Below are positions 35,901 to 61,084 of a stretch of 64,000 nucleotides of DNA, piece by piece. The DNA is from Piezodorus guildinii. Its lineage: Eukaryota > Arthropoda > Insecta > Hemiptera > Pentatomidae. Where the stretch lies: the NCBI GenBank assembly GCA_023052935.1, contig CM041297.1, positions 104,833,563-104,897,562 on the forward strand, written 5' to 3'. The first letter of the stretch is position 1. Each line of letters starts with the position of its first letter. The notes under the pieces are model-generated. The model was not told the DNA's origin. It saw only the letters and a list, made by a program, of their open reading frames with translations, and made no database searches. The position numbers and the translations under genes are program-made.

Positions 35901-35903
35901 CAT
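4719..35903 (-). CDS. ubiquitin carboxyl-terminal hydrolase, USP4/11/15/32 type, with RING-like insert (18 coding exons)
   Basis: A cysteine protease that removes ubiquitin from proteins. Eighteen coding exons join in phase at GT-AG sites (each is listed separately) to about 1036 residues, provided one extra base in exon 5 is discounted. Order: acidic/proline-rich N-terminus (1-120) with no DUSP domain; Cys box with catalytic Cys131 (GLRNLGNTCFMGAGIQCL); HDCQEF and LLLDGLHE; a low-complexity insert; the KSVVVNTFQGQFKST finger region and a zinc-ribbon CSVC; a ubiquitin-like segment; RING-like cysteines (661-704); a second beta-rich insert; the partner CPQC; VYLKRF; and a His box with His945 (GHYTTYA) and Asp963 (FNDS). 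All three catalytic positions are intact. The closest remembered human relatives are USP4/11/15, which carry DUSP and UBL domains at the N-terminus; this protein lacks them. Exact ortholog unassigned. Confidence 0.93.
5278..5560. mobile_element. foldback repeat with ~100-bp inverted arms (PLE- or retrozyme-like)
   Basis: Two arms of about 100 bp (5311-5410 and about 5440-5548) are inverted copies carrying GAGAGAAGTTGGTTCAGGGT, an ACACAATTAAG block and GGTGCCGACGTTTCG. The junction carries CCCTGAAGAAGGCC. The left flank, GAAGTGACAATGGTTGACTG, recurs at 5983, so this is a dispersed family. It sits in USP intron 17. Confidence 0.75.
5434..5467 (+). ncRNA. hammerhead-ribozyme-like core motif
   Basis: CTGAAGA (5434-5440) is followed by a GGCC...GGCC stem, GAAA (5460-5463) and a GTC (5465-5467). 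These are the conserved elements of a hammerhead ribozyme (CUGANGA, stem II, GAAA, UH cleavage site). Stem III would be only the palindromic ACGT, as in the minimal hammerheads described in Penelope-like elements, which act as dimers. Stem I pairing is weak here (about 2 bp), so activity is doubtful. Confidence 0.4.
5983..7010. mobile_element. second foldback element of the same family, ~320-bp arms
   Basis: The arm at about 5990-6330 recurs inverted at about 6715-7010: for example GTGGAATACAATGTATAAAG against TATTGTATTCCACTACTGG, and ACACAATTAAGTATAAACTT against its complement. Both outer ends carry the same GTTCAGG...AACGTTTCG module as the element at 5278. About 400 bp of unrelated spacer separates the arms. 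Confidence 0.75.
6083..6113 (-). ncRNA. second hammerhead-like motif
   Basis: On the minus strand CTGAAGA (6113-6107) and GAAA (6088-6085) frame a short stem, then CGTTG. The layout matches the motif at 5434, with GTT in place of GTC. The stem is imperfect. Confidence 0.3.
7253..7396 (-). CDS. USP exon 17, catalytic His box
   Basis: It encodes GVSAGHYTTYAQHPYTHQW then HYFNDS and AYILFYKKQ. The catalytic His and the following Asp are present, as is the terminal AYxLFY strand that closes the USP fold. Confidence 0.96.
7572..7866 (-). mobile_element. Helitron 3' end with RepHel helicase C-terminus
   Basis: On the minus strand 7809-7651 encodes HQSFAVTINKSQEQTFTGQL, then LSRPAS and a stop. This is the last motif of the Pif1-like helicase of Helitron rolling-circle transposons (TINKAQGQT...GQLYVALSR in intact ones). 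The residues normally found between QTF and GQLY are missing. About 80 bp further the sequence ends GGGCAACAGCTAG, with CTAG at 7575-7572, fitting a CTRR Helitron terminus next to T. It is a truncated relic in USP intron 16. Confidence 0.75.
7875..8159 (+). mobile_element. right part of the ACTTTCACTTACC TIR element
   Basis: The text CTGTTGGAAAGCTAAAGATT through AAAACACATGTTTCTAT matches the right half of the full element at 58355-59128, and the end GGTAAGTGAAAAT matches its right TIR. The left half is missing. Confidence 0.65.
8513..8775 (-). repeat. tRNA-derived SINE (family A)
   Basis: Minus-strand head: GGGGTCACCTTAGCATAGTG (A box TAGCATAGTGG), then GTCGTGGGTTCAAACCC (B box). The body and 3' tail (ATAGTAGCATAAAGTGACG) are shared with the copies at 3389-3665 and 13018-13118. 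It is in USP intron 16. Confidence 0.8.
8935..9056 (-). CDS. USP exon 16
   Basis: It encodes FVFHNHISTKLEEKVLFPL and ends YDLYACVCHIGG, leading into the His box. Acceptor TTTCAG|GTTTG, donor GGAG|GTAATT. Confidence 0.95.
9162..9278 (-). CDS. USP exon 15, second zinc-ribbon CxxC
   Basis: It encodes ETLDGNNPWFCPQCKLNRCA and VWRYPDYLIVYLKR, the zinc-ribbon partner and the conserved LKRF strand, completed in exon 16. Confidence 0.95.
9352..9557 (-). CDS. USP exon 14
   Basis: It begins GLHCSRCMYHSHCRGCELPE, a Cys/His-rich block comparable to the CRGC block of USP32-like enzymes, and ends LTLYDCIQAFSQ. Acceptor AATGCAG|GGCC, donor AAAG|GTATGC. Confidence 0.93.
9600..10020. other. intron 13 stretch, nothing recognised
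   Basis: Between USP exon 14 and the Tc1 relic I see only AT- and purine-rich sequence with no conserved protein fragment. Confidence 0.5.
10025..10580 (-). pseudogene. Tc1-like transposase relic
   Basis: Minus-strand translation gives an N-terminal helix-turn-helix start (MVLDPLTAAQIVAKVEDGRR) and, with frame changes, YGHWTDEEWSHVRSTDESRF and LHTPDR. TDESRF carries a catalytic Asp of the DDE/D domain. There are multiple stops and frameshifts and no second or third catalytic block, so it is dead. It lies in USP intron 13. Confidence 0.8.
10992..11187 (-). CDS. USP exon 13, second inserted beta-rich segment
   Basis: It encodes INIPLVFRVDTVGDG through LLPYKESYRLLLVDGQ. Length and the alternating hydrophobic pattern suggest a ubiquitin-like or related small fold; this is inference. 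Confidence 0.9.
11320..11432 (-). CDS. USP exon 12, second half of the RING-like module
   Basis: It encodes ASCTHYGGSTFDCPVCRKEI and a helical tail, ending in phase 2 at CAAG|GTATG. The final CPVC completes the RING-like pattern. The intron to exon 11 is over 6 kb and full of repeats. Confidence 0.92.
11813..12784 (-). mobile_element. TIR element (ACTTTCACTTACC family), near full-length
   Basis: Ends: ACTTTCACTTACCT at 11813 and AGGTAAGTCAAAGT at 12771-12784. The interior (minus strand) matches the copies at 24564 and 58355, including GGGAAAGTATTGCGAT, ACCATGCATTTTGCACC-like text and AATAGTCTGACAGGGCTTAA variants. No transposase frame is seen, so it is a non-autonomous MITE-like element. No clear target duplication found. 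Confidence 0.65.
13018..13118 (-). repeat. family A SINE, 3' part
   Basis: It shares the 3' tail and the CTGGACATGTAAAATTTAGG body (minus strand) with the SINEs at 3389 and 8513. The tRNA head is missing; it abuts the LINE fragment at 13120. Confidence 0.65.
13120..13740 (+). pseudogene. Jockey-like LINE fragment: ORF1 C-terminus and ORF2 start
   Basis: One frame from about 13180 to 13660 is proline/glutamine-rich with a single internal stop and ends LLISLLSQFPINFPR. Its TGA overlaps an ATG (ATGA at 13657-13660) that opens MNEQTLAILLWNSNGLNPR, the typical start of an apurinic endonuclease ORF2 (ILQWNANGL). It breaks off at a TAA near 13735. Confidence 0.7.
14065..14170 (-). repeat. family C SINE, partial
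   Basis: Minus strand: GCAGAATAATTATTTATTCT and CCTGGGGCACATCCAGC match the SINE at 59548-59925. Confidence 0.6.
14170..15650. other. intron 11 stretch, nothing recognised
   Basis: AT-rich intronic sequence with short poly(A) runs (for example 15425-15450). No coding remnant or known repeat was seen. Confidence 0.5.
15654..15720. repeat. near-perfect hairpin
   Basis: Arms 15663-15683 and 15690-15710 (CTGTTTAATAAGGATAGTGG and complement) are perfectly complementary over 21 bp with a 6-base loop TGTTGA. Pairing of ATTCATTA with TTAATGAAT extends it outward. Confidence 0.85.
15972..16245 (+). repeat. tRNA-derived SINE (family B)
   Basis: Head: GCCTGTGGCTGAGTGGTTAG (A box TGGCTGAGTGG) and GTGAGTTCGAATCCCAGTCC (B box GTTCGAATCCC), resembling a Leu/Ser tRNA. 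The ~180-bp body holds CTCCCCCGGGTATGTGGGA and ends near GGCCTGTCGCGCC. A reverse copy lies at 33958-34215. The anticodon arm and acceptor stem do not fold as a tRNA, so it is a SINE rather than a tRNA gene. Confidence 0.85.
16260..17700. other. intron 11, T-rich and otherwise empty
   Basis: Several long poly(T) runs (16511-16529, 16580-16594, 16640-16661, 16719-16737) occur within 250 bp. Open frames here are short and without recognisable homology. Confidence 0.5.
17740..17850 (-). CDS. USP exon 11, first half of the RING-like module
   Basis: It encodes SCIICLEDKDTNMKQHADC then TCILCESCIT: CxxC, then H-x2-C-x-C-x2-C-x2-C. With CPVC in exon 12 it gives a RING-like series of zinc ligands in the middle of the protease domain. 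Confidence 0.92.
18029..18139 (-). CDS. USP exon 10, end of the ubiquitin-like insert
   Basis: Thirty-seven codons, EDHQLIRYLNDSDRSLYAFE onward, phase 0 at both ends. Acceptor CTTTAG|GAAGA, donor GCAAG|GTAAAG. Confidence 0.92.
18140..19250. other. intron 9 stretch, nothing recognised
   Basis: AT-rich sequence between USP exon 10 and the LTR element. No coding remnant seen. Confidence 0.45.
19255..19740 (+). repeat. 5' LTR, copy 1
   Basis: 486 bp, TGTAATA...TATTATA. It ends next to TAATTTGGCTCCC. Confidence 0.9.
19746..19760 (+). promoter_or_regulatory. putative tRNA primer-binding site
   Basis: TGGCTCCCAACTAGG begins with TGG, the complement of a tRNA CCA end, just inside the 5' LTR. The same site is present in copy 2. 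The tRNA is not identified. Confidence 0.6.
19855..20628 (+). CDS. 257-residue protein of the LTR element (gag-like, unrecognised)
   Basis: ATG at 19855 (CAATATGGAGG) opens MEDQGNNSYSDRTEKIQIF. Residues about 18-50 look like a coiled coil (MMMMEKLEQKVDKFGKEIL). Residues about 70-115 carry two related acidic units, each with DQECET and a VTPxCTxEP phrase. Residues about 155-257 are a mixed hydrophobic region ending TPYYFWTRQSLSFSRG. I find no CCHC knuckle, protease DTG or polymerase motif. Position and coiled coil suggest a gag-derived product, but this is inference. Copy 2 differs by one residue (Ser to Leu at about residue 93) and stays open. Confidence 0.7.
   Translation: MEDQGNNSYSDRTEKIQIFKQFMMMMEKLEQKVDKFGKEILENFTSVTTEMKIDPQRRTSIEDEENKNKEPMDQECETVTPNCTEEPTSKTVPSEDPTDQECETETVTPMCTVEPKLMSNPCNVMIEEAKDLMTSSIDVKESVNIKEDQIHDVKPSDSKCLTFRTLISVLSPQNRPPVVFYRLSVSNNPEIDFSISYNYLSPIVNLINQYRNVPTKTIIVFILDYEFYLGYMVLDHVRKDQTPYYFWTRQSLSFSRG
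21230..21285. repeat. poly(A) and poly(T) runs before the 3' LTR
   Basis: A homopolymer A run and a T run lie within 60 bp, just upstream of the polypurine tract of copy 1. Confidence 0.7.
21286..21299 (+). other. polypurine tract
   Basis: GGATTGGGGAGAAA abuts the 3' LTR start at 21300, the expected plus-strand primer position. Confidence 0.65.
21300..21785 (+). repeat. 3' LTR, copy 1
   Basis: 486 bp, same as the 5' LTR by eye, followed by the ATAT target duplicate. Confidence 0.9.
22010..22450 (-). pseudogene. LINE reverse-transcriptase C-terminal fragment
   Basis: Minus-strand frames give AFRKFRKAFTAFWNSIPSSI and STFKYLFFQHLL, resembling the C-terminal block (FRxSFFPYAISxWNSLPxxI...SxxSFK) of arthropod LINE polymerases. 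It is interrupted by stops. It lies in USP intron 9. Confidence 0.5.
22480..23830. other. intron 9 stretch, nothing recognised
   Basis: AT-rich, with poly(A) near 23775-23825 just before the USP exon 9 donor. No coding or repeat signal identified. Confidence 0.45.
23831..24003 (-). CDS. USP exon 9, start of the ubiquitin-like insert
   Basis: It encodes VTFIGESLKHPTEFLLEL through AEVFDHHIAKVL, aligning with the inserted ubiquitin-like region of USP4/15 (DVYNHRFHKIF in the human protein). Donor ATTG|GTAAGC. Confidence 0.92.
24084..24177 (-). CDS. USP exon 8, first zinc-ribbon CxxC
   Basis: It encodes VVCSVCKFISVTYEPFMYLS and VPLPNAMQKK. CSVC is half of the USP zinc ribbon; its partner CPQC is in exon 15. 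Donor ATTAA|GTAATT in phase 1. Confidence 0.93.
24564..25117 (+). mobile_element. TIR element (ACTTTCACTTACC family), left part
   Basis: It begins ACTTTCACTTACCTATATAT and carries GGGAAAGTATTGCGATC, ACCATGCATTTTGCACC and AATAGTCTGACAGGGCTTAA in the same order as the element at 58355. It stops where the mariner element begins, so the mariner inserted into or next to it. Confidence 0.65.
25118..26035 (+). mobile_element. internally deleted mariner element with transposase remnant
   Basis: Ends GGGTTGTTTCACATGAAATG (25121-25140) and its imperfect complement at 26010-26033 are flanked by TA, the mariner target. From 25306 the sequence encodes a mariner transposase: an N-terminal helix-turn-helix (FKLGHLAAEAARNICKAF, TIRRWF), then STVSRHLKYIGKVKKLD and WVPPHDLTER. 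It then jumps directly to KLKELGYDVHPHPPYSPDLS and ends FFSSGIKNLVSRWEKCVEK. The jump removes the central part of the catalytic domain with the first two Asp residues. At least two frameshifts are also present, so it is inactive. It lies in USP intron 7. Confidence 0.88.
26244..26442 (-). CDS. USP exon 7, finger-domain entry
   Basis: Acceptor TTAATAG|AATGG, donor GCACT|GTAGGT. It ends HWQKHLAENKSVVVNTFQGQ then FKST, equivalent to the W-x2-H...SVIVDTFHGLFKS block of USP4. Confidence 0.95.
26443..27940. other. intron 6 stretch, nothing recognised
   Basis: AT-rich DNA without a coding remnant that I can identify. Confidence 0.45.
27945..28190 (+). pseudogene. RTE-like LINE C-terminal fragment
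   Basis: Translation gives NKAYFSLTKLFKS, then after a stop LLAQATKIRKYKLLIRPIVL, matching the C-terminal stretch of RTE/BovB-type polymerases (KxxLYKTLIRPVVLYG). It is degraded by stops and frame changes. Confidence 0.55.
28398..28670 (-). CDS. USP exon 6, charged linker
   Basis: Acceptor TTTGTAG|ATTTGAT, donor GAGAG|GTATCT. It encodes a charged stretch ending EVEEKNKRMELERRC, likely a short helical or coiled segment. Confidence 0.85.
28740..29120 (-). CDS. USP exon 5, insert region with a one-base frame break
   Basis: The first part reads VKVSTSQSTSQDIVIDC and the second FCSPEPYVPLPV, in frames one base apart. The shift falls at the AAAAA run near 29012-29016: removing one A gives an open exon that ends in phase 2 (ATAAG|GTATTT) and matches the phase of exon 6. 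A homopolymer consensus error is the simplest reading. The content is low-complexity and matches no domain I know. Confidence 0.75.
29458..29590 (+). repeat. family B SINE-like fragment
   Basis: GGCTGTGGTTGTGTGGCTAG and AGGTTGTGAGTCCTATGCC parallel the A- and B-box region of the SINE at 15972; CATACATATAATCAAAAAGGG parallels its body. It is diverged. Confidence 0.5.
29610..30120 (-). mobile_element. TIR element (ACTTTCACTTACC family), left part
   Basis: On the minus strand it begins ACTTTCCTTTACCTATATAT (complement of 30120 downward) and carries GGGAAAGTATTGCAATCG, ACCATGCATTTTGCACC and TAGTCTGACTGGGCTTAA as in the other copies. The right end is missing. Confidence 0.65.
30464..30583 (-). 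CDS. USP exon 4, HDCQEF motif
   Basis: Forty codons in phase 0, opening HDCQEFLALLLDGLHEQLN, the second conserved USP block. Acceptor TTATAG|CATGA, donor GTATT|GTAAGT. Confidence 0.95.
30656..30933 (-). CDS. USP exon 3, catalytic Cys box
   Basis: Acceptor TTACAG|TTGATGG, donor AGACAG|GTTTG. It encodes GLRNLGNTCFMGAGIQCL with the catalytic cysteine, and continues through LTRKIWCGRY to the start of the HDCQEF motif. The usual Asn after CFM (CFMNS) is Gly here (CFMGAG). Confidence 0.95.
30934..33957. other. large part of USP intron 2, nothing recognised
   Basis: About 3 kb of AT-rich intron. It has an (ATA)n run near 32455-32475 and a small hairpin (TCTGTGAATGG at 32482-32492 with its complement near 32523-32533). 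No coding remnant identified. Confidence 0.5.
33958..34215 (-). repeat. tRNA-derived SINE (family B), reverse copy
   Basis: Minus strand: GCCCGTGACTGAGTGGCTAG (A box) and GTTGTGAGTTCAAATCCCAG (B box), then the same body as the SINE at 15972, including CTCCCCCGGGTATATTAGCC and AGGGAGTGATGACCCTACCC. Confidence 0.85.
34216..35314. other. USP intron 2, nothing recognised
   Basis: AT-rich intron with no coding or repeat signal identified. Confidence 0.45.
35315..35499 (-). CDS. USP exon 2
   Basis: Acceptor TTTTAG|GACAG, donor ATAC|GTAATG, ends in phase 1. It encodes a proline-rich stretch (PPIPDLPPIPLPAPS) followed by acidic low-complexity sequence, probably disordered. Confidence 0.8.
35764..35903 (-). 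CDS. USP exon 1 (start codon)
   Basis: ATG at 35903-35901 opens MDCDVGLLSSEID and ends in phase 2 at donor G|GTAGGC. It is the first in-frame Met in this exon and joins exon 2 cleanly to give ENTWTDDE. Non-catalytic, acidic N-terminus. Confidence 0.8.
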
Positions 35904-36066
35904 TAAAGGATATTAAAAGGAGCATGCCAGTAACTAATCTATTTATTAAAAGAAATGGAATGAAACCGAATTATAATAAAACTGTAACCAACAAAGTTCA
36001 TAACAATGATCACTTCACTGATACTACACGTTACAGGTGACAGAACATAGCAAAGAGAAAAACTGT
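35904..36066. promoter_or_regulatory. USP-side part of a divergent promoter region
   Basis: Between the USP start codon and the 19-kb element only 163 bp remain (plus the target duplicate). The USP 5' UTR and core promoter must therefore lie here, inside the element, or use an upstream exon beyond it. No TATA box or initiator is distinctive. Confidence 0.4.
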
Positions 36067-36074
36067 ATGGCAAG
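36067..36074. repeat. left 8-bp target-site duplication
   Basis: ATGGCAAG immediately precedes TAGGGATGGG and is repeated exactly at 55136-55143. Confidence 0.9.
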
Positions 36075-39000
36075 TAGGGATGGGATATCGATATCGATAT
36101 TATCGGAATATCGATATTTTCGCCTCGATATTCGATATTTTTTATATCGATATTTTATGTCCGATAATATCGGAATATCGATAAATGTCACCGATATTAT
36201 CGAGAAAAAAATAATGTTAATAGTAAATTTCACTAGAAGTATAACAACAAACATATTTTTCTACTCTTTTCATATAATTTCGATATATTTTGATATCTGC
36301 AGTACATATATCATAAATGCGCATAGACATAATATCTAATATCCGATATTTTGCAACATTTATGGGTATATAATCTCAAAATTTTATATTTGTTACATTA
36401 ATGTTAGTTAATATCGATATTAGTGACTATTATGTCATATAATATCAACATTTGTTACATTTATGTTAAATAATAACGATATTTGTTACATTTGTGTTAG
36501 ATGATATCGATATTTGTTACATTTATGTTATATAATATCGATATTTGAAACATAGAAGTTAGTTAATATGGATATTGTTACATTTAACTTGGATAATATA
36601 TATATTCGACATCATTTATGTTCGATAATATCGATATTTGTTATACTTACGGTCAATAATATCGATATTAGTGACTATTATGTTAAATAATATCAAGATT
36701 TGTTACATTTATGTTAGATGATATCGATATTTTTTCCAATTATGTTAAATATTATCGATATTTGAAATATAGAAGTTAGTTAAAATCGTTATTAGTTACA
36801 TATAGCTTAGGTAATATATATTTTTGGCCTCACTTGTGTTAGATAACATCGGTATTTGTCATAATTATGTTAGATAATATCGATATTCGTTATACATTTT
36901 CGGTAGATAATATCGATATTTGTTACTTTTATGTTTGGTAGTATCGATATTTGTTACATTTATGTTAAATAATACCATTTTTTGTTACAATTTTAGTTGC
37001 TAATATCGATATTAGTTACATTTTATTTAGATAATATATATTTTCGGCCATATTTATGTGAGATAATATCGATATTTGTAATATAATATCGTTATTTGTT
37101 ATATTTATGTTAGATATTATCGATATTGGTTATATTTATGTTAGATTATATCGATATTTGTTATATTTATGACATATAATATCGTTATTTGTTATATTTA
37201 TGTTAGGTATTATCGATATTGGTTATATTTATGCTAGAATATCGATATTTATTATATTAATGTTAGATAATATCGATATTTTTACATTTATGTTATATAA
37301 TATCGATTTTTGCAACATTTATGTTAGATAATAACGATATTTGTTATATTTATGTTAGATGATATCGATATTTTTTACATTTATCTTATATATTATCGAT
37401 ATTTGTTATACATACGGTCGATAATATCGACAGTTGTTACACTTATGGTCAATAATATCGATATTTAAAACATAGAAGTTAGTTAATATCGATATTAGTT
37501 ACATATAGCTTAGATAATATATATTTTTGGCCTCACTTATATCGATATGCGTTATACATTTTCGGTCGATAATAACGATATTTGTTAATTTTATGTTTGG
37601 TAATATCGATATTTGTTACATTTATGTTAAATTATACCATTGTTTGTTACAATTCTAGTTGCTAATATCGATATTAGTTACATTTTATTTAGATAATATA
37701 TATTTTCGGCCGTATTTATGTGAGATAATATCGATATTTGTTATATTTATGTTATATATTATCGATATTGGTTATATTTATGTTAGATTATATCGATATT
37801 TGTTACATTTATGTCATATAATATCGTTATTTGTTATATTTATGTTAGATATCGATATTGGTTATATTTATTTTAGAATACCAATATTTGCTATATTAAT
37901 GTTAGATAATATCGATATTTGTTACATATATGTTATATGATATCGATATTTGTTCGATTTATGTTAGACCATATCGATATTTATTATTCTAATATTAGAT
38001 AATATCGAGATATGTTGCACTTATGTTCCATAATATCGATATTTGAAACATAGAAGTTACTTAGTATTGATATTAGTTGCATTTAACACAGATTATATAT
38101 ATTTATGCCTCATTTATTTTAGATAATATCGATATTTGTTACATTTATGTCATCTAATATCGTTATTTGTTATATTTATGTTAGATATCGATATTGGTTA
38201 TATTTATTTTAGAATACCGATATTTGCTATATTAATGTTAGATAATATCGATATTTGTTACATATATGTTATATGATATCGATATTTGTTCGATTTATGT
38301 TAGACCATATCGATATTTATTATTCTAATATTAGATAATATCGAGATATGTTGCACTTATGTTCCATAATATCGATATTTGAAACATAGAAGTTACTTAG
38401 TATTGATATTAGTTGCATTTAACACAGATTAATATATTTATGCCTCATTTATTTTAGATAATATCGATATTTGTTACATTTATGTTAGATGATATCGATT
38501 ATTTTTACATTTATCTTATATATTATCGATATTGTTATACATACGGTCGATAATATCGACAGTTGTTACACTTATGGTCAATAATATCGATATTTATAAA
38601 CATAGAAGTTATTAATATCGATATTAGTTACATATAGCTTAGATAATATATATTTTTGGCCTCACTTATATCGATATGCGTTATACATTTTCGGTCGATA
38701 ATAACGATATTTGTTAATTTCATAGTTTGGTAATATCGATATTTGTTACATTTATGTTAAATTATACCATTGTTTGTTACAATTCTAGTTGCTAATATCG
38801 ATTATTAGTTACATTTTATTTAGATAATATATATTTTTCGCCGTATTTATGTGAGATAATATCGATATTTGTTTATATTTATGTTATATATTATCGATAT
38901 TGGTTATATTTATGTTAGATTATATCGATATTTGTTACATTTATGGTCATATAATATCGTTATTTTTAACTTAAGTTAGATATCGATATTGGTTATATTA

Positions 39001-42000
39001 TATTTAGAATACCAATATTTGCTATATTAATGTTAGATAATATCGATATTTGTTACATATATGTTTATATATCGATATTTGTTCGATTTATGTTAGACCA
39101 TATCGATATTTATTATTCTAATATTAGATAATATCGAGATATGTTGCACTTATGTTCCATAATATCGATATTTGAAACATAGAAGTTACTTAGTATTGAT
39201 ATTAGTTGCATTTAACACAGATTATATATATTTATGCCTCATTTATTTTAGATAATATCGATATTTGTTACATTTATGTCATCTAATATCGTTATTTGTT
39301 ATATTTATGTTAGATATCGATATTGGTTATATTTATTTTAGAATACCGATATTTGCTATATTAATGTTAGATAATATCGATATTTGTTACATATATGTTA
39401 TATGATATCGATATTTGTTCGATTTATGTTAGACATATCGATATTTATTATTCTAATATTAGATAATATCGAGATATGTTGCACTTATGTTCCATAATAT
39501 CGATATTTGAAACATAGAAGTTACTTAGTATTGATATTAGTTGCATTTAACACAGATATATATATTTATGCCTCATTTATTTTAGATAATATCGATATTT
39601 GTTACATTTATGTCATCTAATATCGTTATTTGTTATATTTATGTTAGATATCGATATTGGTTATATTTATTTTAGAATACCGATATTTGCTATATTAATG
39701 TTAGATAATATCGATATTTGTTACATATATGTTATATGATATCGATAATTTTTGTTCGATTTATGTTAGACAATATCGATATTTATTATTCTAATATTAG
39801 ATAATATCGAGATATGTTGCACTTATGTTCCATAATATCGATATTTGAAACATAGAAGTTACTTAGTATTGATATTAGTTGCATTTAACACAGATTATAT
39901 ATATTTATGCCTCATTTATTTTAGATAATATCGATATTTGTTACATTTATGTAATAATATTGATATTTGTTATCTTATTTAATACATATCGATATTTTGT
40001 AATATTATGTAATAATATCGGTAATTGATATTTTACGTTATATATGTATCGATATTTGTTCGATTTATGTTAGACATATCGATATTTATTATTCTAATAT
40101 TAGATAATATCGAGATATGTTGCATTATGTTCATAATATCGATATTTAATCATAAAGTTACTTAGATATGATTATTGCATTATACACTGATTATATATAT
40201 ATTTATGTCTCATTTATTTCAGATAATATCGATATTTGTTACATTTATGTTAGATAATTATTGATATTTGTATATCTTAATTACATAATATCGATATTCT
40301 GCTAATCTTATGTTAGATAATATCGATATTTATAATTTATGTTATATGTATCGATATTTGTTCATTTATTGATAATATCGATATTTGTTATATTTATGTA
40401 GATAATATCGATATTTGTATTTATGTTATAATATCGATATTGTTATATTTATGTTAGATATATCGATATTTGTTATATTTATGTTATATGATATCGATAT
40501 TTGTTACATTTATTTGCCATATGTTCGATATTTGTTCCATTTATGTTAGATAATTTCGATATTTGTATATTTAGAATACATACGATATTATACATTATGT
40601 TAATATCGATATTTGTTCATTTATGTTGATAATATCGATATTTTTATTTTATGTTAATAATATAGATATTTGTTATATTTATATTGATATATATCGATAT
40701 TTGTTATATTTATGTGATATAATATCGATATTTGATACATTTATGTTATACAATATCGATATTTGTTCATTTATGTTAGATAATATCGATATTTGTTATT
40801 TATTTATATGATACGTATTTTTAATTTAACGATAATTGATAAATTTATGTTTGTAGATATCGATATTTGTTTCATTTATGTTAGATAAATCGATATTTGT
40901 TATATTTATGTTAGATATATGATATTGTATATTTTGATATCGTATTGTTATATTTTGTAATATATTACGATATATTGTTTATATTTATGTTTTAATAATT
41001 ATCATATTGTTTATTTTGTTAATAATTGATGTTTTATTTATTAGATAACTTCGATATTTTATTATATTTAGTTATATGAATTTTTTTATTCTGAATATAT
41101 ATTTGTATATTTATGTGATATATATCGATATTTGATTACATTTATGTTATCAATATCGATATTTGTTCCATTTATTAGATAATATCGATATTTGTTACAT
41201 TTATGTGTATATATGAACGATATTTATTAAATTTTTTAGATAATATCATGTTTATTAATCATATCTTACTGCATCGATACATTATGTAGTATACAATTTG
41301 TTACATTTAATAATCGATATTTGTATAATATTTTTAATATATTTGTATATATTATGTATATATTCATATGTTACATAGATACGATATATGTTCTATTTAA
41401 TTTATTGGTTGTATATCGATATTTGTCTAGATATATTATGTGAGTATTTTATATTTTGTTAATTATGTTAGTTAAATGAAATTAATATTTCATTATATTT
41501 TATATTGCATAATTAATTGTTATTATACTATTAATATTGATGTTTCTTCCATTTATGTTAGATAATATCGATATTTGTAATCCTTATATTAGATTATATC
41601 GATATTTTTTTTATATTCATGTGAGAGTATATATATTTGTTACATTTTTGTTATATGATATCGATATTTGTTACATTTATGTTATATGGTGTCGATATTT
41701 GTTCCATTTATACTAGGTCATATCGTTATTTTGCTACATTTGTGTTGGATTATAGAGATATTTATTAAATTTATGTTAGATAATATACATGTTTTTTTCT
41801 TTTACGTCATCAACATATGTTATTATCAACATTTGTTACATTTATATTATATAATATCAATATTTTTTACATTTATTTTATATAATATCGATATTCTTTC
41901 ATACTGTTACATTTATGTTAGTTAATATCGATTCTTGTTACATTTATGTTATATTATATCGATATTCTGCTAGATCAATATTATATAATTTCTATATTTT

Positions 42001-42110
42001 GCTTCAATTTTGTTAGTTGAAATGAAATAAATATTTCATTATATTTTGATATTTTCGGCATAATTTAATGTTGTAATAACGATATTTTGCTCGTTTTATC
42101 TTATGCTAAA
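36075..42110 (+). repeat. left satellite array, ~31-bp monomer
   Basis: The monomer reads AATATCGATATT then TGTTACATTTATGTTAGAT, with variants at the second half. Higher-order structure is visible: a ~335-bp unit recurs (GAATACCRATATTTGC at about 37875, 38212, 39005, 39340 and 39675). A larger ~1.13-kb unit repeats the CATACGGTCGATAATATCGA block at about 37411 and 38541. From about 40.0 to 41.4 kb the monomers lose many single bases. Confidence 0.92.
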
Positions 42111-44560
42111 ATTAAAATATATGCTGTAAGCATTAATCAAATCACATATATTTAGTAAGTAGGAGGTGATTTTTTGAGTATCGTCAATATACATAATATG
42201 TCTAATGCATACCAATGCAATTATATAAGATATGGTGGTTTTTAATTATGCTTATGGTGAGAAGTTTTTTTTTTTTTTTATTAAAACGAAGAATGTTAAA
42301 GTATTTAAGAGGCCCTAGTTTGATCGATAAGTTTTCATTTCACTTTTTATTAAAAACAACTTTTTCTCTTAGGTTGGGTGTCACTTCCATGCATGAGAAT
42401 AATTGTTTAGAACATACTATTTTGATAAGGATTTGTGGGAATATCAACATTTGAAACGAGTAAATAACAAGATATCACCATTTCCGAATGACACTGGAAA
42501 ATCTTGTACTTTAACTTTATTAATCGGATAGTTTATGAAAATAATATACTTTATAAAAATGTGTATAGGGTTTTAGAATCAGAACAAGAGCGATAAACAA
42601 AAAAAAAAAAGAAAGAAGGAAAAATGAAAAAAATTGAAAACTTTCCTATATATACGCTAGTGACTCAGTTATTTTCGATGATAAACAAAAAAAATCTATA
42701 GAGTTTTAGAATCAGTACACCGCTGGTAATTATAAGACCGGAAAAAAGAAAAGAAAAATAATATACATTTTTCGAATAAACACGCCCATAACTCAGTTAT
42801 TTTTGAGAATAGAGAAAAATATGTACAGAGAGAGTTTCAGAATAAGTAAAACGCGATAAAAAGAAAAAAAAATCTATATAATTATGTCACAAATTATCAT
42901 AGATGTAATTCCTCCAAAACTCGGTAATTATTGAAAATAGAGAAAAATTGAAAAGATTTTCACAGCGAAAAAAAGAGAGAGAAAAAAAAATTGATCTTAT
43001 GAGATGTGATTTCCAGATAACTCCATTATTGATGAAAAATTTAGAGAAAAATGTAATGTGTTGTGGTATCGAGGAATTTCGTTTGATTGAAAGTATAAAT
43101 GCTTTTGATTTAGTATTTTCAATAATGAACCCTTGTAATCAACAACAAAAATTACTCTACGTGTCGATAAATTCAATAAATGACAATTCGATAGAGAATT
43201 AAAGTCCCTACAAATTTCAATATTTTGGCTTTAGACCATCTCCGGGAAACCCCCACTTTACAAGAAGCCGAAAATAAAGAGCTTATAGTTACCTAAACAA
43301 CTTCCTATTTCTGAGAAAGAACGAAAAGTATCAAGGAAGTAAACATACGTGGATTAAGAAAATTAAATTACTTTTTATAGGCTTATATTATTATCCAGTG
43401 ATTTATGGAGCAATTTAACCATTCTACATATTTTGTTATCTTTTAGATTTGTTTGTAAATAACTACAAACCGAAAACAAAAATACCTTACGAGAATGACA
43501 ATGAAATGACTTGTTCTAGGAATAATCTTTGTTCAAAATCTCTCACTTATGAAAATACAATTCTTTGAATTGATGTTAAATCAGCTTTATTTCCTTTATG
43601 ATATTACATTACATTATTGTATCTGAAATAATAAACTTACAGATTTCTTGTAGAGTAGAAAAAGGAAAATATTGATCGGTATTTCATTATATATGTAAAA
43701 TGAGCTAACGGATCCAATTCGATGAATATAGAATATCAATTACCAAATTCAAGTTACTGCTGCCAAAATAAAAAACGTGCAAATTACACAAAAAGAGCAA
43801 AATATGCTTTATTCATATACCAAACTTGGGGGGGGGGAGGGGAGGGGGGAAGAAAAATTTAGAATAAGAAGTAAAAACAGGTGCTTTCCTCGACCAAAAT
43901 AATTATATACAATTTTTGTTTCCAGCAATTTAAAAATATTATTTGTAATCTATGAATATATTACTTCTGATTGTTTTGTTTTTTTAGTTAATAATATAGT
44001 AATGTATAAATAAACTTTCATGTTCTTTATATATTTTTGTCTAGTGAATTACATTGATTTGTTCATTAGTCCATTTATAATTGAGCTTCCTTCAGAGATT
44101 TCTTCATAATTATTTTTTGACTTAACAAAGTTTAGCGATGGTTAACTCCAATATTAGTTACCATCATCTCTTACCTATAACCAATACATAATTTTTTAGT
44201 TACAATATCAACTTAGCTTTAGTATGTCGTTATTGTTGTGTTCATTTAAATTAGGATTTAATTGTTTAAGAAACGATTATCTCCTCATTATACAATACAT
44301 TTAGATGTTTTAAAATAATGAATTCATCAATATTTTGATATAACCATATTTGTTAGGCTTTATAAACAGTTTTTATAAAATTTGTTTCGTAAATCGAGGT
44401 TTTAGTCACTAAGAAATATGTTAGCTCTTAAATGTAGGGAAATTTGTTTATATTTAGTTTCTTTTTACACTCAATGAGAACTTATTGAGTATTATTTTTA
44501 TTATAATTATCATTCAAAGATAGAGATCAGGTCGTTTGCTTTTTCTTTATTTTTAAAGTT
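42110..44560. other. non-satellite centre of the giant element
   Basis: It lacks the monomer. A loose repeat of about 120-140 bp is visible at about 42572, 42694 and 42829 (each with GTTTTAGAATCAG or GTTTCAGAATAAG, then an A-rich run and an ACTCAGTTATTTTYGA-type phrase). Open frames here are at most 84 codons and match nothing I know; no hAT dimerisation or BED-finger motif is seen. A poly(G) tract lies at about 43829-43850. Confidence 0.6.
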
Positions 44561-47500
44561 AACATACATATTGATATTGCTTCGCCGATATTATCAAATC
44601 GTTTTATTAATCAAAATCCGTTTAAGAAAGTGTTATTAAAATCCGATTATCCACGGCCCGATATTAAACCACATATAGATTGAAATTATCTAACATAAAT
44701 GTATCAAATGTTGATAATATCTAACATAAAAGAAAAAATATCAATATTATCTAGCATAAATTTAAGAAATATCTCTATAATCCAATATAAATGTAGCAAA
44801 ATATCGATATGACCTAATATAAATATAACAAATATCGATATAACCTAATTTAAATATAACAAATATCAATATTATCTAACATAAATGAAACTAATACCGA
44901 TATTATCTAACATAAATCTAACTAATATCAATATTACCTTACATAAATAAAACTAATATCGATATTATTTTACATAAATATAACTAATATCGATATTATC
45001 CTACATAAATGTACCTAATATCGATATTAATTAACTTTATATCAATTTCTATTATAGAAGAGTAATTTAGGATATGATTATATCAATTGGAACATTCTCT
45101 TCAAATTATGTTTATATGTATTTATTTATCAAAACATGTCAAAAATAAATATGATATTGAAAATCTGAAGATGAGGAATAGGGTACCTATGATTTATTTT
45201 TGACATGTTTTGATAAATAAATACATATAAACATAATTAGAAGAGAAGATATTATCTAACATATATGTATTAAATATCAATATTATCTACTTTTAATGTG
45301 AGAAATATCAATATTAACTAACAATAATTTATCTAATACCGATATTATCTAACATAAATGTACCAAATATCGATATTATCTTACATAAATGTAACTAATA
45401 TCGATATTATCTTACATAAATGTAACTGATATCGATATTATCTACTTTTAATGTGAGAAATATCAATATTAACTAACAATAATTTATCGAATGTGAGAAA
45501 TATCAATATTAACTAACATTAATTTATCTAATACCGATATTATCTAACATAAATGTAACAAATATCGATATTATTTGACATAAATGTACCTAATATCGAT
45601 ATTATTTAATATATATGTACTAAATATCGATATTATATACCTTTAATGTGAGAAATATCAATATTATATACCTTTAATGTGAGAAATATCAATATTATAT
45701 ACCTTTAATGTGAGAAATATCAATATTAACTAACATTAATCTATCTAATACCGATATTATCTAACATAAATGTAACTAATATGGATATTATCTTACATAA
45801 ATGTAACTAATATTGATATTAATTAACATATATGTACTAAATATCGATATTATCTAATTTTAATGTGTAAAATATCAATATTAACTAACATTAATTTATC
45901 TAATACCGATATTATCGTACATAAATGTAACAAATATCGATATTATCGTACATAAATGTAACTAATACCGATATTATCTTACATAAATGTAACTAATATC
46001 GATATCAATTAACATATATGTACAAAATATCAATATTATCTACTTTTAATGTGTAAAATATCAATATTAACTAACATTAATTTATCTAATACCGATATTA
46101 TCGTACTTAAATGTAACTAATATCGATATTATCTTACATAAATGTAACTGATATCGATATTATCTACTTTTAATGTGAGAAATATCAATATTAACTAACA
46201 ATAATTTATCGAATGTGAGAAATATCAATATTAACTAACATTAATTTATCTAATACCGATATTATCTAACATAAATGTAACAAATATCGATATTATTTGA
46301 CATAAATGTACCTAATATCGATATTATTTAATACATATGTACTTAATATCGATATTATATACCTTTAATGTGAGAAATATCAATATTATATACCTTTAAT
46401 GTGAGAAATATCAATATTATATACCTTTAATGTGAGAAATATCAATATTATATACCTTTAATGTGAGAAATTCAATATTATATACCTTTATGTGAGAAAT
46501 ATCAATATTAACTAACATTAATCTATCTAATACCGATATTATCTAACATAAATGAAACTAATATGGATATTATCTTACATAAATGTAACTAATATTGATA
46601 TTAATTAACATATATGTACTAAATATCGATATTATCTAATTTTAATGTGAAAAATATCAATATTAACTAACATTAATTTATCTAATACCGATATTATCGT
46701 ACATAAATGTACCAAATATCGATATTATCGAAACATAAATGTAACTAATACCGATATTATCTTACATAAATGTAACTAATATCGATATCAATTAACATAT
46801 ATGTACTAAAATATCGATATTATCTACTTTTAATGTGAGAAATATCAATATTAACTAACATTAATTTATCTAATACCGATATTATCTAACATAAATGTAA
46901 CAAATATCGATATTATCGTACATAAATGTAACTAATACCGATATTATTTACATAAATGTAACTAATATCGATAATAATAACATATATTGTACTAAATATC
47001 GATATTATCTACTTTTAATGTGAGAAATATCAATATTAACTAACATTAATTTATCTAATACGATATTATCTAACATAAATGTAACAATATCGATATTATC
47101 GTACATAAATGTAACTATATCGATTATCGTAATAATGTAATATACCGATATTATTGACATAAATGTACTAATATGATATTATCTTACGAAATGTAATAAT
47201 ATCGATATTATCTTACATAAATGTAACTATATCGATATTATCTACATTTAATGTGAGAAATATCAATATTAACTAACATTAATTTATCTAATAACGATAT
47301 TATCTAACATAAATGTAACAAATATCGATATTATCGAACATAAATGTAACAAATATCGATATATCTAATAATGTAACTAATATCATATTATCGTACATAA
47401 TAACTATCCGATATTTATCGACATAAATGTAACTAATATGGATATTATCTTACAGAAATGTAACTAATATCGATATTATCTTACATAAATGTAACTAATA

Positions 47501-50500
47501 TCGATATTATCTACATTTAATGTGAGAGATATCATATTAACTAACATTAATTTATCTAATACGATATTATCTAACATAAATGTAACAAATATCGATTATT
47601 TAAATATATGTACCAATATCGATATTATTACTTTAATGTGAGAAATATCAATATTTAACCTTTAATGTGAGAAATATCAATATTAACTAACATTAATTTA
47701 TCTAATACGATATTATCTAATAAATGTAACTAATATGGATATTATCTTACATAAATGTAACTTAATATCGATATTAATTAACATATATGTACTAAATATC
47801 GATATTATCTACTTTTAATGTGAGAAATATCAATATTATATACTTTAAAGTGAGATAATATCAATATTATATACTTTAATGTGAGATAAATTCAATATTA
47901 ATCTAACATTAATTTATTAATACCGATATTATCGTACATATATGTAACTAATATGGATATTATCTTACATAAATGTAACTAATATGATTATCTAATTAAC
48001 ATATATTACTTAATATCGTATTATTCTAATTTTTAATGTGTAAAATATCAATATTAATAACTAATTAATTTATCTGATTACGATATTATTTAACATAATA
48101 TGTAACAACAAATATCATCCTATATATGTACATAAATGTAACTATATACGATATTATCTTACATAAATTAAAAACTAATATCGATAATAAATAATAATAT
48201 ATGTACTAAATATTCGATATATATCTACTTTTAATGTGAAAATTATCAATATTATATACCTTTAAATGAGAAATATCAATATTATATACCTTTAAATGTG
48301 AGAAAATAATCAATATTTAACTAACTATACTTAATTAATCATAATATCCGATATTATCTAACATAAATGTAACTAATATGGATATAATCTTACATAAATG
48401 TAACTAATATCGATATTATTTAATAATATGTACTAATATCGATATTATATACCTTTAATGTGAGAAATATCAATATTTATACCTTTAATGTGAGAAATAT
48501 CAATATTATATACCTTTAATGTGAGAAATATCAATATTATTACCTTTAATGGGGAAATATCAATATTATATACCTTTAATGTGAGAATATCAATATTAAC
48601 TAACATTAATCTATCTAATACGATATTATCTAACTAAATGAAACTATATGATATTATCTTACATAAATGTAACTAATATTGATATTAATTAACATATATG
48701 TACTAAATATCGATATTATCTAATTATCTGACATAATGTAACTAATATGGATATTATCTTACAGAAATGTAACTAATATCGATATTATTTACATAAATGT
48801 AACTAATATCGATATTATCTACATTTAATGTGAGAATATCAATATTAACTAACATTAATTTATCTAATACCGATATTATCTAACATAAATGTAACAAATA
48901 TCGATATTATTTTAACATATATGTACTCAATATCGATATTATTTAACAATATATGTACTCATTAGATATTATTATACCTTTAATGTGAGAAATATCAATA
49001 TTTTATACCTTTAATGTGAGAAATATCAATATTAACTAACATTAATTTATCTAATACCGATATTATCTAACATAAATGTAACTAATATGGATATTATCTT
49101 ACATAAATGTAATTAATATCGATATTAATTAACATATATGTACTAAATATCGATATTATCTACTTTAATGTGAGAAATATCAATATTATATACTTTAAAG
49201 TGAGAAATATCAATATTATATACCTTTAATGTGGAAATATCAATATTAATAACATTTAATTTATCTAATACCGATATTATCGTACATATATGTAACTAAT
49301 ATGGATATTATCTTACATAAATGTAACTAATATTGATATTAATTAACATATATGTACTAAATATCGATATTATCTAATTTTAATGTGTAAAATATCATAT
49401 TAATAACATTAATTTATCTGATACGATATTATCTAACATAAATGTAACAAATATCGATATTATCGTACATAATGTAACTAATACCGATATTATCTTACAT
49501 AAATGTAACTAATATCGATAATAAATAACATATATGTACTAAATATCGATATTATCTACTTTTAATGTAAATATCAATATATATATACTTTAAAGTGAGA
49601 AATATCAATATTATATACCTTTAATGTGAGAAATATCAATATTAACTAACATTAATTTATCTAATACCGATATTATCTAACATAAATGTAACTAATATGG
49701 ATATATCTTACATAAATGTAACTAATATTGATATTAATTAACATATATGTACAAAATATCGATATTATCTAATTTTAATGAGAGAAATATCAATATTATA
49801 TTACATTAATTTATTAATACCGATATTATCGTACATAAATGTAACTAATATGGATATTATCTTACATAAATGTAACTAATATTGATATTAATTAACATAT
49901 ATGTACTAAATATCGATATTATCTAATTTTAATGTGTAAAATATCAATATTAACTAACATTAATTTATCTAACACCGATATTATCTAAAATAAATGTAAC
50001 AAATATCGATATTATCGTACATAAATGTAACTAATACCGATATTATCTTACATAAATGTAACTAATATCGATATAAATAACATATATGTACTAAATATCG
50101 ATATTATCTATTTTTAATGTGAAAATATCAATATTATATACATTAATATGTGAGAAATATATTATTAAATAAATGTAACAAATATCGATATTATCGTACA
50201 TAAATGTAACTAATACCGATATTATCTTACATAAATGTAACTAATATCGATATTAATAACATATATGTACTAAATATCGATATTATCTAATTTTAATGTG
50301 TAAAATATCAATATTAATAACATTAATTTATCAAAATACGATATTATCTACACATAAAATGTATATACAAATAATATACGATATTATCTACATAAATGTA
50401 ACTAATATCCGATATTATCTTACATAAATGTAACTAATATCGATAATAATAACATATATGTACTAAATATCGATATTATCTACTTTTAATGTGAGAAATA

Positions 50501-53500
50501 TCATATAATCTTACAAATAACAATTACATATTATCTACATAACTGAATATATCGTATATCGTACATAAATGTAACTAAATACCGATATTATCTACATAAA
50601 TGTAACTAATATGGATATTAAACTTACATAAATGTAACTAATATCGATATTATCTATATTAATGTAACTAATACAATATTATCGTACATAAATGTATCTA
50701 AATCGATATTATCTACATAATGTAACAATACGATATTATCTGACATAAATGTAACTAATAGATATTATCTTACATAAATGTAACTAATATCGATATATCA
50801 TATATAAATGAAACTAATACGATATTATCTTACATTAATGTATAATATCGAATATTATATACCTTTAATGTGAGAATTCAATATTATATACTTTAATTGA
50901 GAAATATCAATATTAATAACATTAATTATTATACCGATATTATTAACATAAATGTAACAATATAGATTAATCTTACATAAATGTAATAATATGATATTAT
51001 TAACATATATGTCAAATATCTATTATCTATTTAATGGAGAAATATAATATTAATACATTAATTATTAATCCGATATTATTAATAAATGTAACAATATGAT
51101 ATTATTTAATAATGTAACTAATATGATATTATTAACTATGTAAATATCATTTTAATTTAATGTGAAATATCAATATTAATAACTTAATTTATCTAACCGA
51201 TATTATCTAAAAAGTAACTGTATTATGTATTTATCTTATCTACAAATGTAATAATCGATATATTAAATATATGACTAAATATCGATATTATCTATTTAAT
51301 GGTAAATATCAATATAACTACATTAATTTATAATACGATATTACACATAAAATAAATCTACATATGATATGTATACTACTAAATGTACTATATGATATAA
51401 TAACATAAGTACTAATATCGATATTATTATTTTAATGTGAAATATCGAATATTTACTAAAGTAAATATCAATATTAATAATGAACTATATCGATATTATC
51501 GTAATAATTAACTAATACGATATTATCTACATAATGTAATAATATGATATTACTACATAAATGTACTAATACGATATATCTATTCTTTAATGTAAAAATT
51601 AATATGATTACTACTGAATGAATAATTATATCTTAATGAAATTATATTATCTTACATAATTACTAATACGATATTATCTTATAAATGTAACAATAAGATA
51701 TTATCTTACATAAATGTACTAATATGAATTATTACTAATGTAAATATCATATTATACTTAATGGAGAAATATCAATATTAATTACATTAATTTATCTAAT
51801 ACGATATTATCTACATAAATGTAACTAATATGGATATATCTTACATAAATGTAACTAATATGATATTAATTAACATATATGTACTAAATATCGATTATCT
51901 ACTTTTAATTGAAAATATAATTAATACATTAATTTATAATACGATATTATCTAACTAAATGTACGAAAATATCGATATTAATACCTAATAAATACATATA
52001 TATCTTAAGGGAAATATATATTAACATTAATTATCTAATACCGATATTATCTAACATAATGTAACTAATATGGATATTATCTTACATAAGTAATAATATC
52101 GATATTATTAACTATATTATAATATCGATATTATCATTTAATGAATATCAATTAACTACATTATTTATCTATACGATATTATCGTACATAAATGTAACTA
52201 ATAGGATATTATCTTACATAAATGTAACTAATATTGATATTAATTAACATATATGTACTAAATATCGATATTATCTAATTTTAATGTGAAAATATCATAT
52301 TAACTAAATTAATATCTACACGATATTATCTAAAATAAATGTAACAAATATCGATATTATCGTACATAAATGTAACTAATACCGATATTATCTTACATAA
52401 ATGTAACTAATATCGATATAAATAACATATATGTACTAAATATCGATATTATCTTTAATGTGAGAAATATCAATATTATATACCTTAAAGTGAAATATCA
52501 TATTATATACCTTTAATGTAGAAATATCATATTAACTAACATTAATTTATCTAATCGATATTATCTACATAAATGTAACTAATATGATATAATCTTACAT
52601 AAATGTAACTAATATTGATATTATTAACATAATGTAAAATATCGATATTATCTAATTTTAAGGGTGAAATATCAATATTAACTTACATTAATTTATCTAA
52701 TACCGATATTATCGTACATAATGTAACTAATATGGATATTATCTTACATAATGTAACTAATATTGATATTAATTAACATATATGTACTAAATATCGATAT
52801 TATCTAATTTTAATGTGTAAAATATCAATATTAATAACATTAATTTATCTAACACCGATATTATCTAAATAAATGTAACAAATATCGATATTATCGTACA
52901 TAAATGTAACTAATACGATATTATCTTACATAAATGTAACTAATATCGATATTAATTAACATATATGTACTAAATATCGATATTATCTAATTTTAATGTG
53001 TAAAATATCAATATTAACTAACATTAATTTATCTAATACCGATATTATCTAACATAAATGTAACAAATATCGATATTATCGTACATAAATGTAACTAATA
53101 CCGATATTATCTTACATAAATGTAACTAATATCGATAATAAATAACATATATGTACTAAATATCGATATTATCTACTTTTAATGTGAGAAATATCGATAT
53201 AATCTTACATAAATGTAACAAATATCGATATTATCGTACATAAATGTAACTAATATCGATATTATCGTACATGAATGTAACTAATACCGATATTATCTGA
53301 CATAAATGTAACTAATATGGATATTATCTTACATAAATGTAACTAATATCGATATTATCTTATATAAATGTAACTAATACAGATATTATCGTACATAAAT
53401 GTAACTAATATCGATATTATCGTACATGAATGTAACTAATACCGATATTATCTGACATAAATGTAACTAATATGGATATTATCTTACATAAATGTAACTA

Positions 53501-55119
53501 ATATCGATATTATCTTATATAAATGTAACTAATACAGATATTATCTTACATAAATGTACTCAATATCGATATTATATACCTTTAATGTGTAAAATATCAA
53601 TATTAACTAACATTAATTTATCTAATACCGATATTATCTAACATAAATGTAACTAATATGGATATTATCGTACATAAATGTAACTAATATCGATATTAAT
53701 TAACATATATGTACTAAATATCGATATTATCTACTTTTAATGTGAGAAATATCAATATTAACTAACATTAATTTATCTAATACCGATATTATCTAACATA
53801 AATGTAACAAATATCGATATTATTTAGCATATATGTACTCAATATCGATATTATATACCTTTAATGTGAGAAATATCAATATTATATACCTTTAATGTGA
53901 GAAATATCAATATTAACTAACATTAATTTATCTAATACCGATATTATCTAACATAAATGTAACTAATATGGATATTATCTTACATAAATGTAATTAATAT
54001 CGATATTAATTAACATATATGTACTAAATATCGATATTATCTACTTTTAATGTGTGAAATATCAATATTAACTAACATTAATTTATCTAATACCGATATT
54101 ATCTAACATAAATGTAACAAATATCGATATAATCTTACATAAATGTAACAAATATCGATATTATCGTACATAAATGTAACTAATATCGATATTATCGTAC
54201 ATGAATGTAACTAATACCGATATTATCTAACATAAATGTAACAAATATCGATATAATCTTACATAAATGTAACAAATATCGATATTATCTAACATAAATG
54301 TAACTAATATCGATATTATCGTACATAAATGTAACAAATATCGATATTATCTGACATAAATGTAACTAATATGGATATTATCTTACATAAATGTAACTAA
54401 TATCGATATTATCTTATATAAATGTAACTAATACAGATATTATCTTACATAAATGTAACTACTATCGATATTATCTCACATAAATGTAACTAATATCGAT
54501 ATGTACTAAATATGGATATTATCTACCTTTAATATGAGATATATCGATATTAACTAACATTAATGTAACTAATACCGATGTTGTCTAATATAAATGTAAC
54601 TAATATCGATATTACCTTGCATAAATGTAACTCACACCGATATTGCTACTAAATATTAATATCCCCATGTTTCCGTTATATTATGTATGTAATCTCAGTA
54701 ATATGCTGATGCCATATTAGCTATTATTAATAGTATATATATTATCCAAGTGTTTTGAATATACGGATATTACGGCATATTTTCATTAATATATTATATA
54801 AATATATATATAATAACGATATTGTATAACGTAAATGTTTCAAAACATCGTTAAAAGGATATTACAAGGTATTCATTTCTGATATACATATTCGAAAATA
54901 TCTCCACGATAACATTTAAATGCAACTAAATATCTATATTACAATACACGCCAAATGTACCTTATATGTTATCGCCCCTATATCTATTAAAAGAGATAGT
55001 AATTTACCGATATATCATTATCGATATTTACGAATATCGATATTTTAGCACCGATATAATATCGGTATCGATATTGCTGACCGATATTGATATCGATATC
55101 GATATCGATATTTTCCTTC
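44560..55119 (-). repeat. right satellite array, inverted relative to the left array
   Basis: Monomers read ATAAATGTAACAAATATCGATATTATC and variants, the reverse complement of the left monomer. Variant cores (AATATCAATATT, ATACCGATATT, AATATGGATATT) recur in fixed order, building units of roughly 160-200 bp marked by TTAATTTATCTAATACCG. The stretch of about 50.3-52.3 kb shows heavy single-base loss; 52.8-54.5 kb is again regular. Confidence 0.92.
45095..45247. repeat. 56-bp-arm hairpin nested in the right array
   Basis: Arms 45095-45150 and 45192-45247 are complementary with one mismatch (for example AATTATGTTTATATGTATTT and its complement); the loop is 41 bp and contains GGGTACC. It has no monomer sequence, so it is a separate small insertion or MITE. 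Confidence 0.8.
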
Positions 55120-55135
55120 CGATATCCCATCCCTA

Positions 55136-55143
55136 ATGGCAAG
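55136..55143. repeat. right 8-bp target-site duplication
   Basis: ATGGCAAG immediately follows CCCATCCCTA and matches 36067-36074 exactly. Confidence 0.9.
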
Positions 55144-55581
55144 GCTTGCCAACACCGTTATACTCAGAGGCCATTAGGACGTTGATGAAAATTGCATAAT
55201 TTATGAAGGTAGAAAAACAGTTAGGTTAAACTAAGGTACCTACTTAATATATTCATAATTTTCAAATGATTATCTTATCATTCCTTATGTATTTAAATTT
55301 GAGAGAACCCCCTTAATTATTAGAGCATGTGAGAGACCTAAATAAAACCGTTCGAGACCTCAATTTGGAATTACTACAGAATTTTTAATTTTTAGTTTTA
55401 TAATTGTTGTATAATAATTTATTTGTATCACATATATTTAAAATACTCATATTTGAGTAATACTAGGATTATGACTCATAAGAGGAAGGTTATGGTTGAT
55501 AGTTACCTTATAAGGTTATCTAAGTGAAATTCAAAATCCAGGTCAGATCATCTAAGTTTATCTCAATTGATTTCATTAATA
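55144..55581. promoter_or_regulatory. PDCL3-side part of the divergent promoter region / 5' UTR
   Basis: 438 bp lie between the giant element and the PDCL3 start codon. No coding signal. Together with 35904-36066 and one ATGGCAAG, it reconstitutes a pre-insertion spacer of about 0.6 kb between divergent start codons. Confidence 0.45.
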
Positions 55582-55587
55582 ATGCAG
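55582..55587 (+). CDS. PDCL3: PDCL3 exon 1 (Met-Gln)
   Basis: ATGCAG|GTAAGT: a two-codon coding exon with a consensus donor. It gives MQDPN with exon 2, as in animal PDCL3 N-termini. Confidence 0.85.
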
Positions 55588-61080: not shown

Positions 61081-61084
61081 TAAA

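Follow-up and report, generated by a model that had tools for sequence, protein, structure and literature searches.

How do satellite arrays reach new places in a genome? This old question is raised in concrete form by a 19,061-bp element in the stink bug Piezodorus guildinii, found on contig CM041297.1 of assembly GCA_023052935.1 within a stretch of 64,000 nucleotides (positions 104,833,563 to 104,897,562), here called the window. A first-pass annotation, made from the sequence alone, had described it as a hAT-like transposon built almost wholly of inverted satellite arrays. We consider it highly probable that the element belongs to a recently active, non-autonomous, foldback-like family of cut-and-paste hAT transposons, whose giant members consist of two distinct ends (the B-end and the A-end), two inverted satellite arrays and a centre without a long open frame. 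Whole arrays have been moved, with clean target duplications, by this recently active family, which shows a direct route for the spread of satellite DNA.

Ends, target duplications and genome-wide copies

The annotation's observation of the element was confirmed. The 16-bp terminal inverted repeats (TIRs; TAGGGATGGGATATCG) are identical at 16 of 16 bases and the flanking target site duplication (ATGGCAAG) at 8 of 8, and two arrays of about 31-bp monomers lie in opposite orientation; the centre, given as 2.4 kb, instead measures about 2.7 kb. Directly inside the 16-bp ends the two terminal sequences diverge. At up to three mismatches the TIR has two matches in the window, both exact, against 0.27 expected (two were reached by 4 of 100 shuffles), and the window holds no third site at this threshold.

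The exact 16-bp end has 58 matches in the window's own 1.2-Gb genome, in which the window's contig is labelled C6, compared with none for a reversed-pattern control. These comprise 26 inverted pairs and six single ends; 22 of the 26 pairs are 7.5–22 kb and four are 0.6–1.9 kb long, with a combined span of 332 kb. Twenty-two copies were read, namely the window copy and 21 of the other 25 pairs (18 giants, four short copies), as was one of the six singles; at the four unread pairs both a B-end and an A-end are present by DNA search. Exact 8-bp duplications flank 20 of the 22 copies, every one different. Genome searches with the two ends yielded at least 41 and at least 42 matches (best 40 of 66 and best 40 of 142 candidates scored). 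Paired ends and 8-bp duplications at other loci, which the first-pass annotation had named as the check on its reading, are thus present, as are the short relatives (miniature inverted-repeat transposable elements, MITEs) that it had predicted.

All 18 giants read show the order B-end, array, centre, inverted array and A-end, and so the tandem-repeat inverted ends around a middle domain that define the foldback structural class. Some are rearranged: an inverted stretch lies within the left array of copy C4_1.93, and extra blocks or nested insertions occur in at least six giants. Across the 18, the first 300 bp of the B-end are 97–100% consensus-like, and pairwise centre identity is 94.8–100% (gaps excluded). 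By monomer scan, arrays make up 29–80% of the giants; single arms contain 1.8–13.4 kb of array, and the largest content is about 570 monomers in one copy. The four short copies have both ends, one single-orientation array and no match to the centre.

Differently built units were also seen. At C4:115880894-115881294 and C4:91162587-91162971, inner A-end sequence appears no more than 0.4 kb after a B-end and runs the opposite way; these are small relatives of another construction. One giant (L044-L045, G000:C2:93031445-93046491) carries a 2.07-kb insertion in its centre with 834-bp inverted ends that are 99.3% alike and one open reading frame (ORF), presumably with a GIY-YIG (Penelope-like) domain. 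Matches of the 16-mer in other collections (one viral and 14 prokaryote contigs) were dismissed as chance, the ATCGAT-repeat continuation being absent from them (0–3 in 3 kb), and two monomer patterns had 0 and 0 matches in viral contigs.

Movement and turnover of the arrays

Copies at three loci with three different duplications (C1_119.4, C2_151.2 and C1_43.6) are connected by chained matches of 9.2–11.3 kb at 96.8–98.3% identity, and the blocks common to them include 9.0 kb at 99.4% and 2.2 kb at 99.9%. The window copy shares with C4_7.29 its left end and array over 2.4 kb at 99.7%, and its centre with adjoining array over 4.8 kb at 99.3%. Since copies at separate loci share 9–11 kb of colinear array and centre, the arrays travel with the element; ends, arrays and centre have been inherited together at numerous loci, with a separate 8-bp duplication at each. 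Copies C3_56.0 and C2_111.3 furthermore have a 0.9-kb centre insertion at the identical position, and similar sequence in L063 points to a probable dispersed repeat, inserted into the centre in a single event.

If short MITE-like copies had inserted first and each array had then expanded in place, the giants would never have moved. Short copies with one small array do exist and array length does change quickly, as such a history would have it, but the colinear array and centre common to different loci, the centre insertion shared at one position and the presence of the centre in all 18 giants, together with its absence from the short copies, make expansion in place highly improbable. Long near-identical blocks between loci might also be produced by segmental duplication or ectopic gene conversion, with no transposition at all. 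The 100-bp flanking sequences, compared across all 22 copies, gave three matches that could be counted in favour of such an origin, all among C1_92.2, C1_203.9 and C2_78.2; they are just three, however, and look like a dispersed repeat. The repeat beside C1_203.9 spans the insertion point of C1_92.2 with the duplicated bases in single copy, although one side of this match is just 12 bp. Set against 20 exact, all-different duplications directly at the ends, spread by duplication or conversion appears extremely unlikely, and transposition of whole elements is the reading that we follow below.

Change is faster in array length than in the centre. Centre divergence is 0.5% or less in fourteen pairs of giants, and in the four pairs with 0–1 substitution in about 2.6 kb of centre the arrays differ by 0.9–2.0 kb (1.5 kb right; 0.9 left and 0.3 right; 2.0 left and 1.5 right; 2.0 left), three of these four pairs being drawn from the same three copies and therefore not independent. 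The blocks most often shared adjoin the ends and surround the centre, with the changes between them. Kilobases of array are thus added or lost over a time in which the centre acquires 0–1 substitution. Slippage, unequal exchange or excision-gap repair could each cause such change; near-identical copies that differ by kilobases of array render its rate and mechanism measurable.

In the window element the arrays account for 78% of the length by monomer scan, which counted about 172 monomers on the left and 304 on the right; the less strict alignment to the 31-bp unit gave 186 and 331 monomer rows, respectively. Higher-order repetition is strongest at 11 monomers in the left arm and at six in the right, where the neighbouring values of five and seven are raised too. 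The nearest-neighbour monomer lies within the same arm for 87% of left monomers (36% expected) and 95% of right monomers (64% expected); from this and from the different higher-order patterns, the arms amplify largely apart. Within the right array, a hairpin-like insertion at 45085-45245, whose two inverted arms of about 56 bp are nearly identical, is perhaps a nested MITE.

Two array patches of the window copy (39930-41300 and 50500-52700, limits set by us after inspection of the array) contain 10–11% deletions per base versus about 2% elsewhere, a roughly fivefold excess. The deletions are mostly single bases and substitutions are low, which suggests unpolished long-read sequence. The deletion-rich share of the array, 17%, is the highest among the 22 copies, and array lengths of the window copy in this assembly are accordingly approximate. 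Weak polishing of the window arrays is also what might be said for an assembly artefact in which array reads were joined to unrelated flanks; misjoining cannot, however, yield 26 inverted pairs (control 0) and exact duplications at 20 of 22 copies, and we give this explanation a negligible probability beside that of a genuine transposon family.

Evidence for hAT affiliation and a possible source of the transposase

hAT elements have short TIRs that begin C/TA(G/A)NG, and their target consensus is nTnnnnAn. The family TIR, 16 bp long and beginning TAGGG, fits this start, and the 8-bp duplications of 20 of the 22 copies have the length typical of hAT insertion. Among the 20 exact duplications, T is found at position 2 in 15 (p 3e-5), A at position 7 in 19 (p 7e-9) and both in 14.

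The window element itself has no transposase and therefore lacks what would make it an autonomous hAT member. Its few ORFs of at least 80 aa are all short; an 84-aa ORF in the centre matched no Pfam family, nor did the stretches scanned from two of the six reading frames of the centre, in which stops were written as X. A 49-bp piece of the centre (43103-43151) is 90% like 26162-26210, which precedes the element within the window.

The hAT dimerisation domain (PF05699) occurs at 12 or more places in the genome, one of which lies within a 14.2-kb relative of the family (C6:100152072-100166241) where B-end, hAT exon and A-end follow in order on one strand. The exon matches PF05699 with an E-value of 4e-12, and its nearest solved relative is the Hermes transposase (E 3e-6). 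In the two pieces from which the interior of this relative is known (1,001 and 251 bp), the end begins TAGGGATGGGATATC and the hAT C-terminal exon follows an acceptor-like site; the exon frame appears broken near its expected end. The eight bases preceding the B-end are GTTCGAGG. Beyond about base 137 the relative no longer resembles the B-end and hence has a different inner part there. On these sequence features we take the C6 unit to be a decayed relative of an autonomous element. Duplication length, target bias and this relative, with both ends and a hAT dimerisation exon, support the affiliation that the first-pass annotation had proposed.

Mutator elements make duplications of 9–10 bp and Galileo, of the P superfamily, 7 bp, against 8 bp in 20 of the 22 copies here. 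That the family is a foldback of Mutator, P or Merlin type instead of hAT is consequently very unlikely in our judgement, the more so as a hAT exon stands between the family's own ends. Such an assignment could appeal to the lack of an own transposase in the element and to the placement of most foldbacks in Mutator (PMC4079207; this and the other papers cited by PMC number were available as excerpts, to which our statements on them apply).

Several points weigh against the explanation by a hAT family. Two of the 22 copies have inexact duplications (C1_203.9, 4/8; C6_109.9, 6/8), the single end that was read (C3:40496212) is an unrelated chance match, and assembly error may inflate the array-length differences between copies. 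At the C6 relative, the A-end TIR has no exact match to the 16-mer, and, as two pieces cover the interior, a nested, unrelated transposase may lie inside it. The Hermes DNA-binding domain (PF10683) had no match, with a control that was equally silent. As for the autonomous copy named among the checks of the first-pass annotation, the C6 relative has both ends and a hAT exon, and the search found no family copy whose transposase is intact. A 719-aa open frame with a hAT end and what we take to be a BED-like start (C1:192723488; L064, G000:C1:192722000-192727000) was rejected as the transposase partner, since the 5 kb of sequence read around it show neither a TIR nor a convincing duplication; it is perhaps a domesticated transposase gene.

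A possible link between transposase and arrays is the core AATATCGATATT, which recurs adjoining the element ends and in each monomer. In both window arms it is conserved above the spacer (Mann-Whitney p 0.008 and 0.005, 31 columns), and with the 22 copies pooled the most conserved 12-bp monomer window overlaps it in both arms. This conservation is compatible with, though no proof of, a transposase binding site. We infer that the arrays arose by expansion of subterminal repeats to which transposase binds. The ends, and perhaps the core, would be recognised by a hAT transposase that is provided in trans and is of a type like that of the C6 exon; the arrays would have started as a small number of subterminal repeats, such as the 0.6–1.9-kb copies have, would have grown through slippage, unequal exchange or excision-gap repair, and would be dispersed anew at each transposition. 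A stronger proposal makes hAT transposition a direct driver of satellite evolution, each jump relocating a kilobase-scale inverted array and repair remodelling its length, with arrays kept as multiplied transposase-binding sites that offset the cost of length, so that the element would be a self-spreading satellite. This we put forward tentatively, as possible but short of probable.

The window copy (Table 1) has a host gene on each side, both being provisional models made by eye: on its left a gene on the minus strand that encodes a ubiquitin hydrolase domain and has its start codon near 35903, and on its right a gene of the phosducin family on the plus strand, with its start codon near 55582. 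With the element removed, about 0.6 kb (35903-36066 plus 55144-55582) would separate these start codons. This position between two host genes makes effects on promoters testable. Elsewhere in the window, a 257-aa ORF is present twice in nearly identical form (19855-20628 and 63149-63922), about 43 kb apart, the scanned copy without a Pfam match, and a tandem repeat of 108-bp units (2.9 copies, 88% matches) occupies 61084-61395.

Table 1. Coordinates of the window element (numbered within the window) and of its relative on C6
Feature	Position	Strand	Remark
Whole element	36075-55135		19,061 bp
Target site duplication ATGGCAAG, left copy	36067..36074	.	8 bp, 8/8 bases
B-end TIR TAGGGATGGGATATCG	36075..36090	+	16 bp
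B-end subterminal region	36075..36385	+	
Left array	about 36386..42000	+	31-bp monomer, higher-order period 11 monomers
Centre	about 42000..44670	.	without long open frame
Right array	about 44670..54660	-	inverted 31-bp monomer, higher-order period ~6 monomers
A-end subterminal region	54661..55135	-	
A-end TIR	55120..55135	-	16 bp
Target site duplication ATGGCAAG, right copy	55136..55143	.	8 bp, 8/8 bases
C6 relative, B-end match	100166112-100166241	-	DNA search
C6 relative, PF05699 exon	C6:100153876-100154076	-	
C6 relative, A-end matches	100152072-100152454	-	DNA search

Comparison with known elements

Foldback (FB) elements of Drosophila have long inverted ends of short tandem repeats, with one unit size of about 31 bp; their duplications are about 9 bp, their affiliation is of Mutator type and their arms are smaller than those described here. 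Tetris of Drosophila virilis is likewise a non-autonomous foldback with internal tandem repeats tied to a satellite, and a transposase-bearing copy of it was not found (PMC4079207); it was described from three structurally complete copies with 8–10-bp duplications and was assigned to Mutator by its authors, as opposed to 26 pairs and 8 bp in 20 of 22 copies here. Galileo resembles our family in its long repetitive ends, with tandem repeats that expand and contract independently on each side, but has a P-type transposase, 7-bp instead of 8-bp duplications and ends of up to about 1.25 kb (PMC3688188, PMC3573991). Its repeats have been shown to hold transposase binding sites, and the authors suggest that multiple sites may offset the cost of length (PMC3688188, PMC3573991).

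The Atlantic cod elements gadMor-hAT-1784 and -8043 are hAT-derived MITEs without transposase and with long tandem-repeat inverted ends (PMC12368964). Their ends of about 600 bp are built of 167–169-bp units in insertions averaging 1.3–5.8 kb, compared with 31-bp units and 7.5–22 kb in P. guildinii. As proposed for the cod elements, long inverted arrays are candidate fragile sites and inversion breakpoints (PMC12368964). Binding of short subterminal motifs by a hAT transposase is known from Herves of Anopheles gambiae, an autonomous element with three such repeats only (PMC3143072). The Xenopus MITEs Xstir and miDNA4 carry tandem arrays, and it has been proposed that satellites originate from them; the review lists miDNA4 under Tc1/mariner, and its passages on the two are without inverted twin arrays or comparable sizes (PMC12628747).

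Searches of the literature on foldbacks, hAT elements and satellites, whose coverage left out most subscription papers, returned no title with such an element of 7–22 kb. A search with the end sequence gave no transposon paper among the titles listed, a further match being unrelated, and the term hAT is absent from the excerpt of a paper on giant transposons (PMC6431247). The first-pass annotation knew of no described element with this layout at this size; the layout proves to be known at smaller scale, whereas for the size no 7–22 kb case was found. Since foldback structure is already known from P-type (Galileo), Mutator-type (Tetris, according to its authors) and hAT-derived (cod) elements, the family constitutes no new category. 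Within the literature searched, the novelty lies in the scale, in how many clean giant copies there are and in the rate of array change that was measured.

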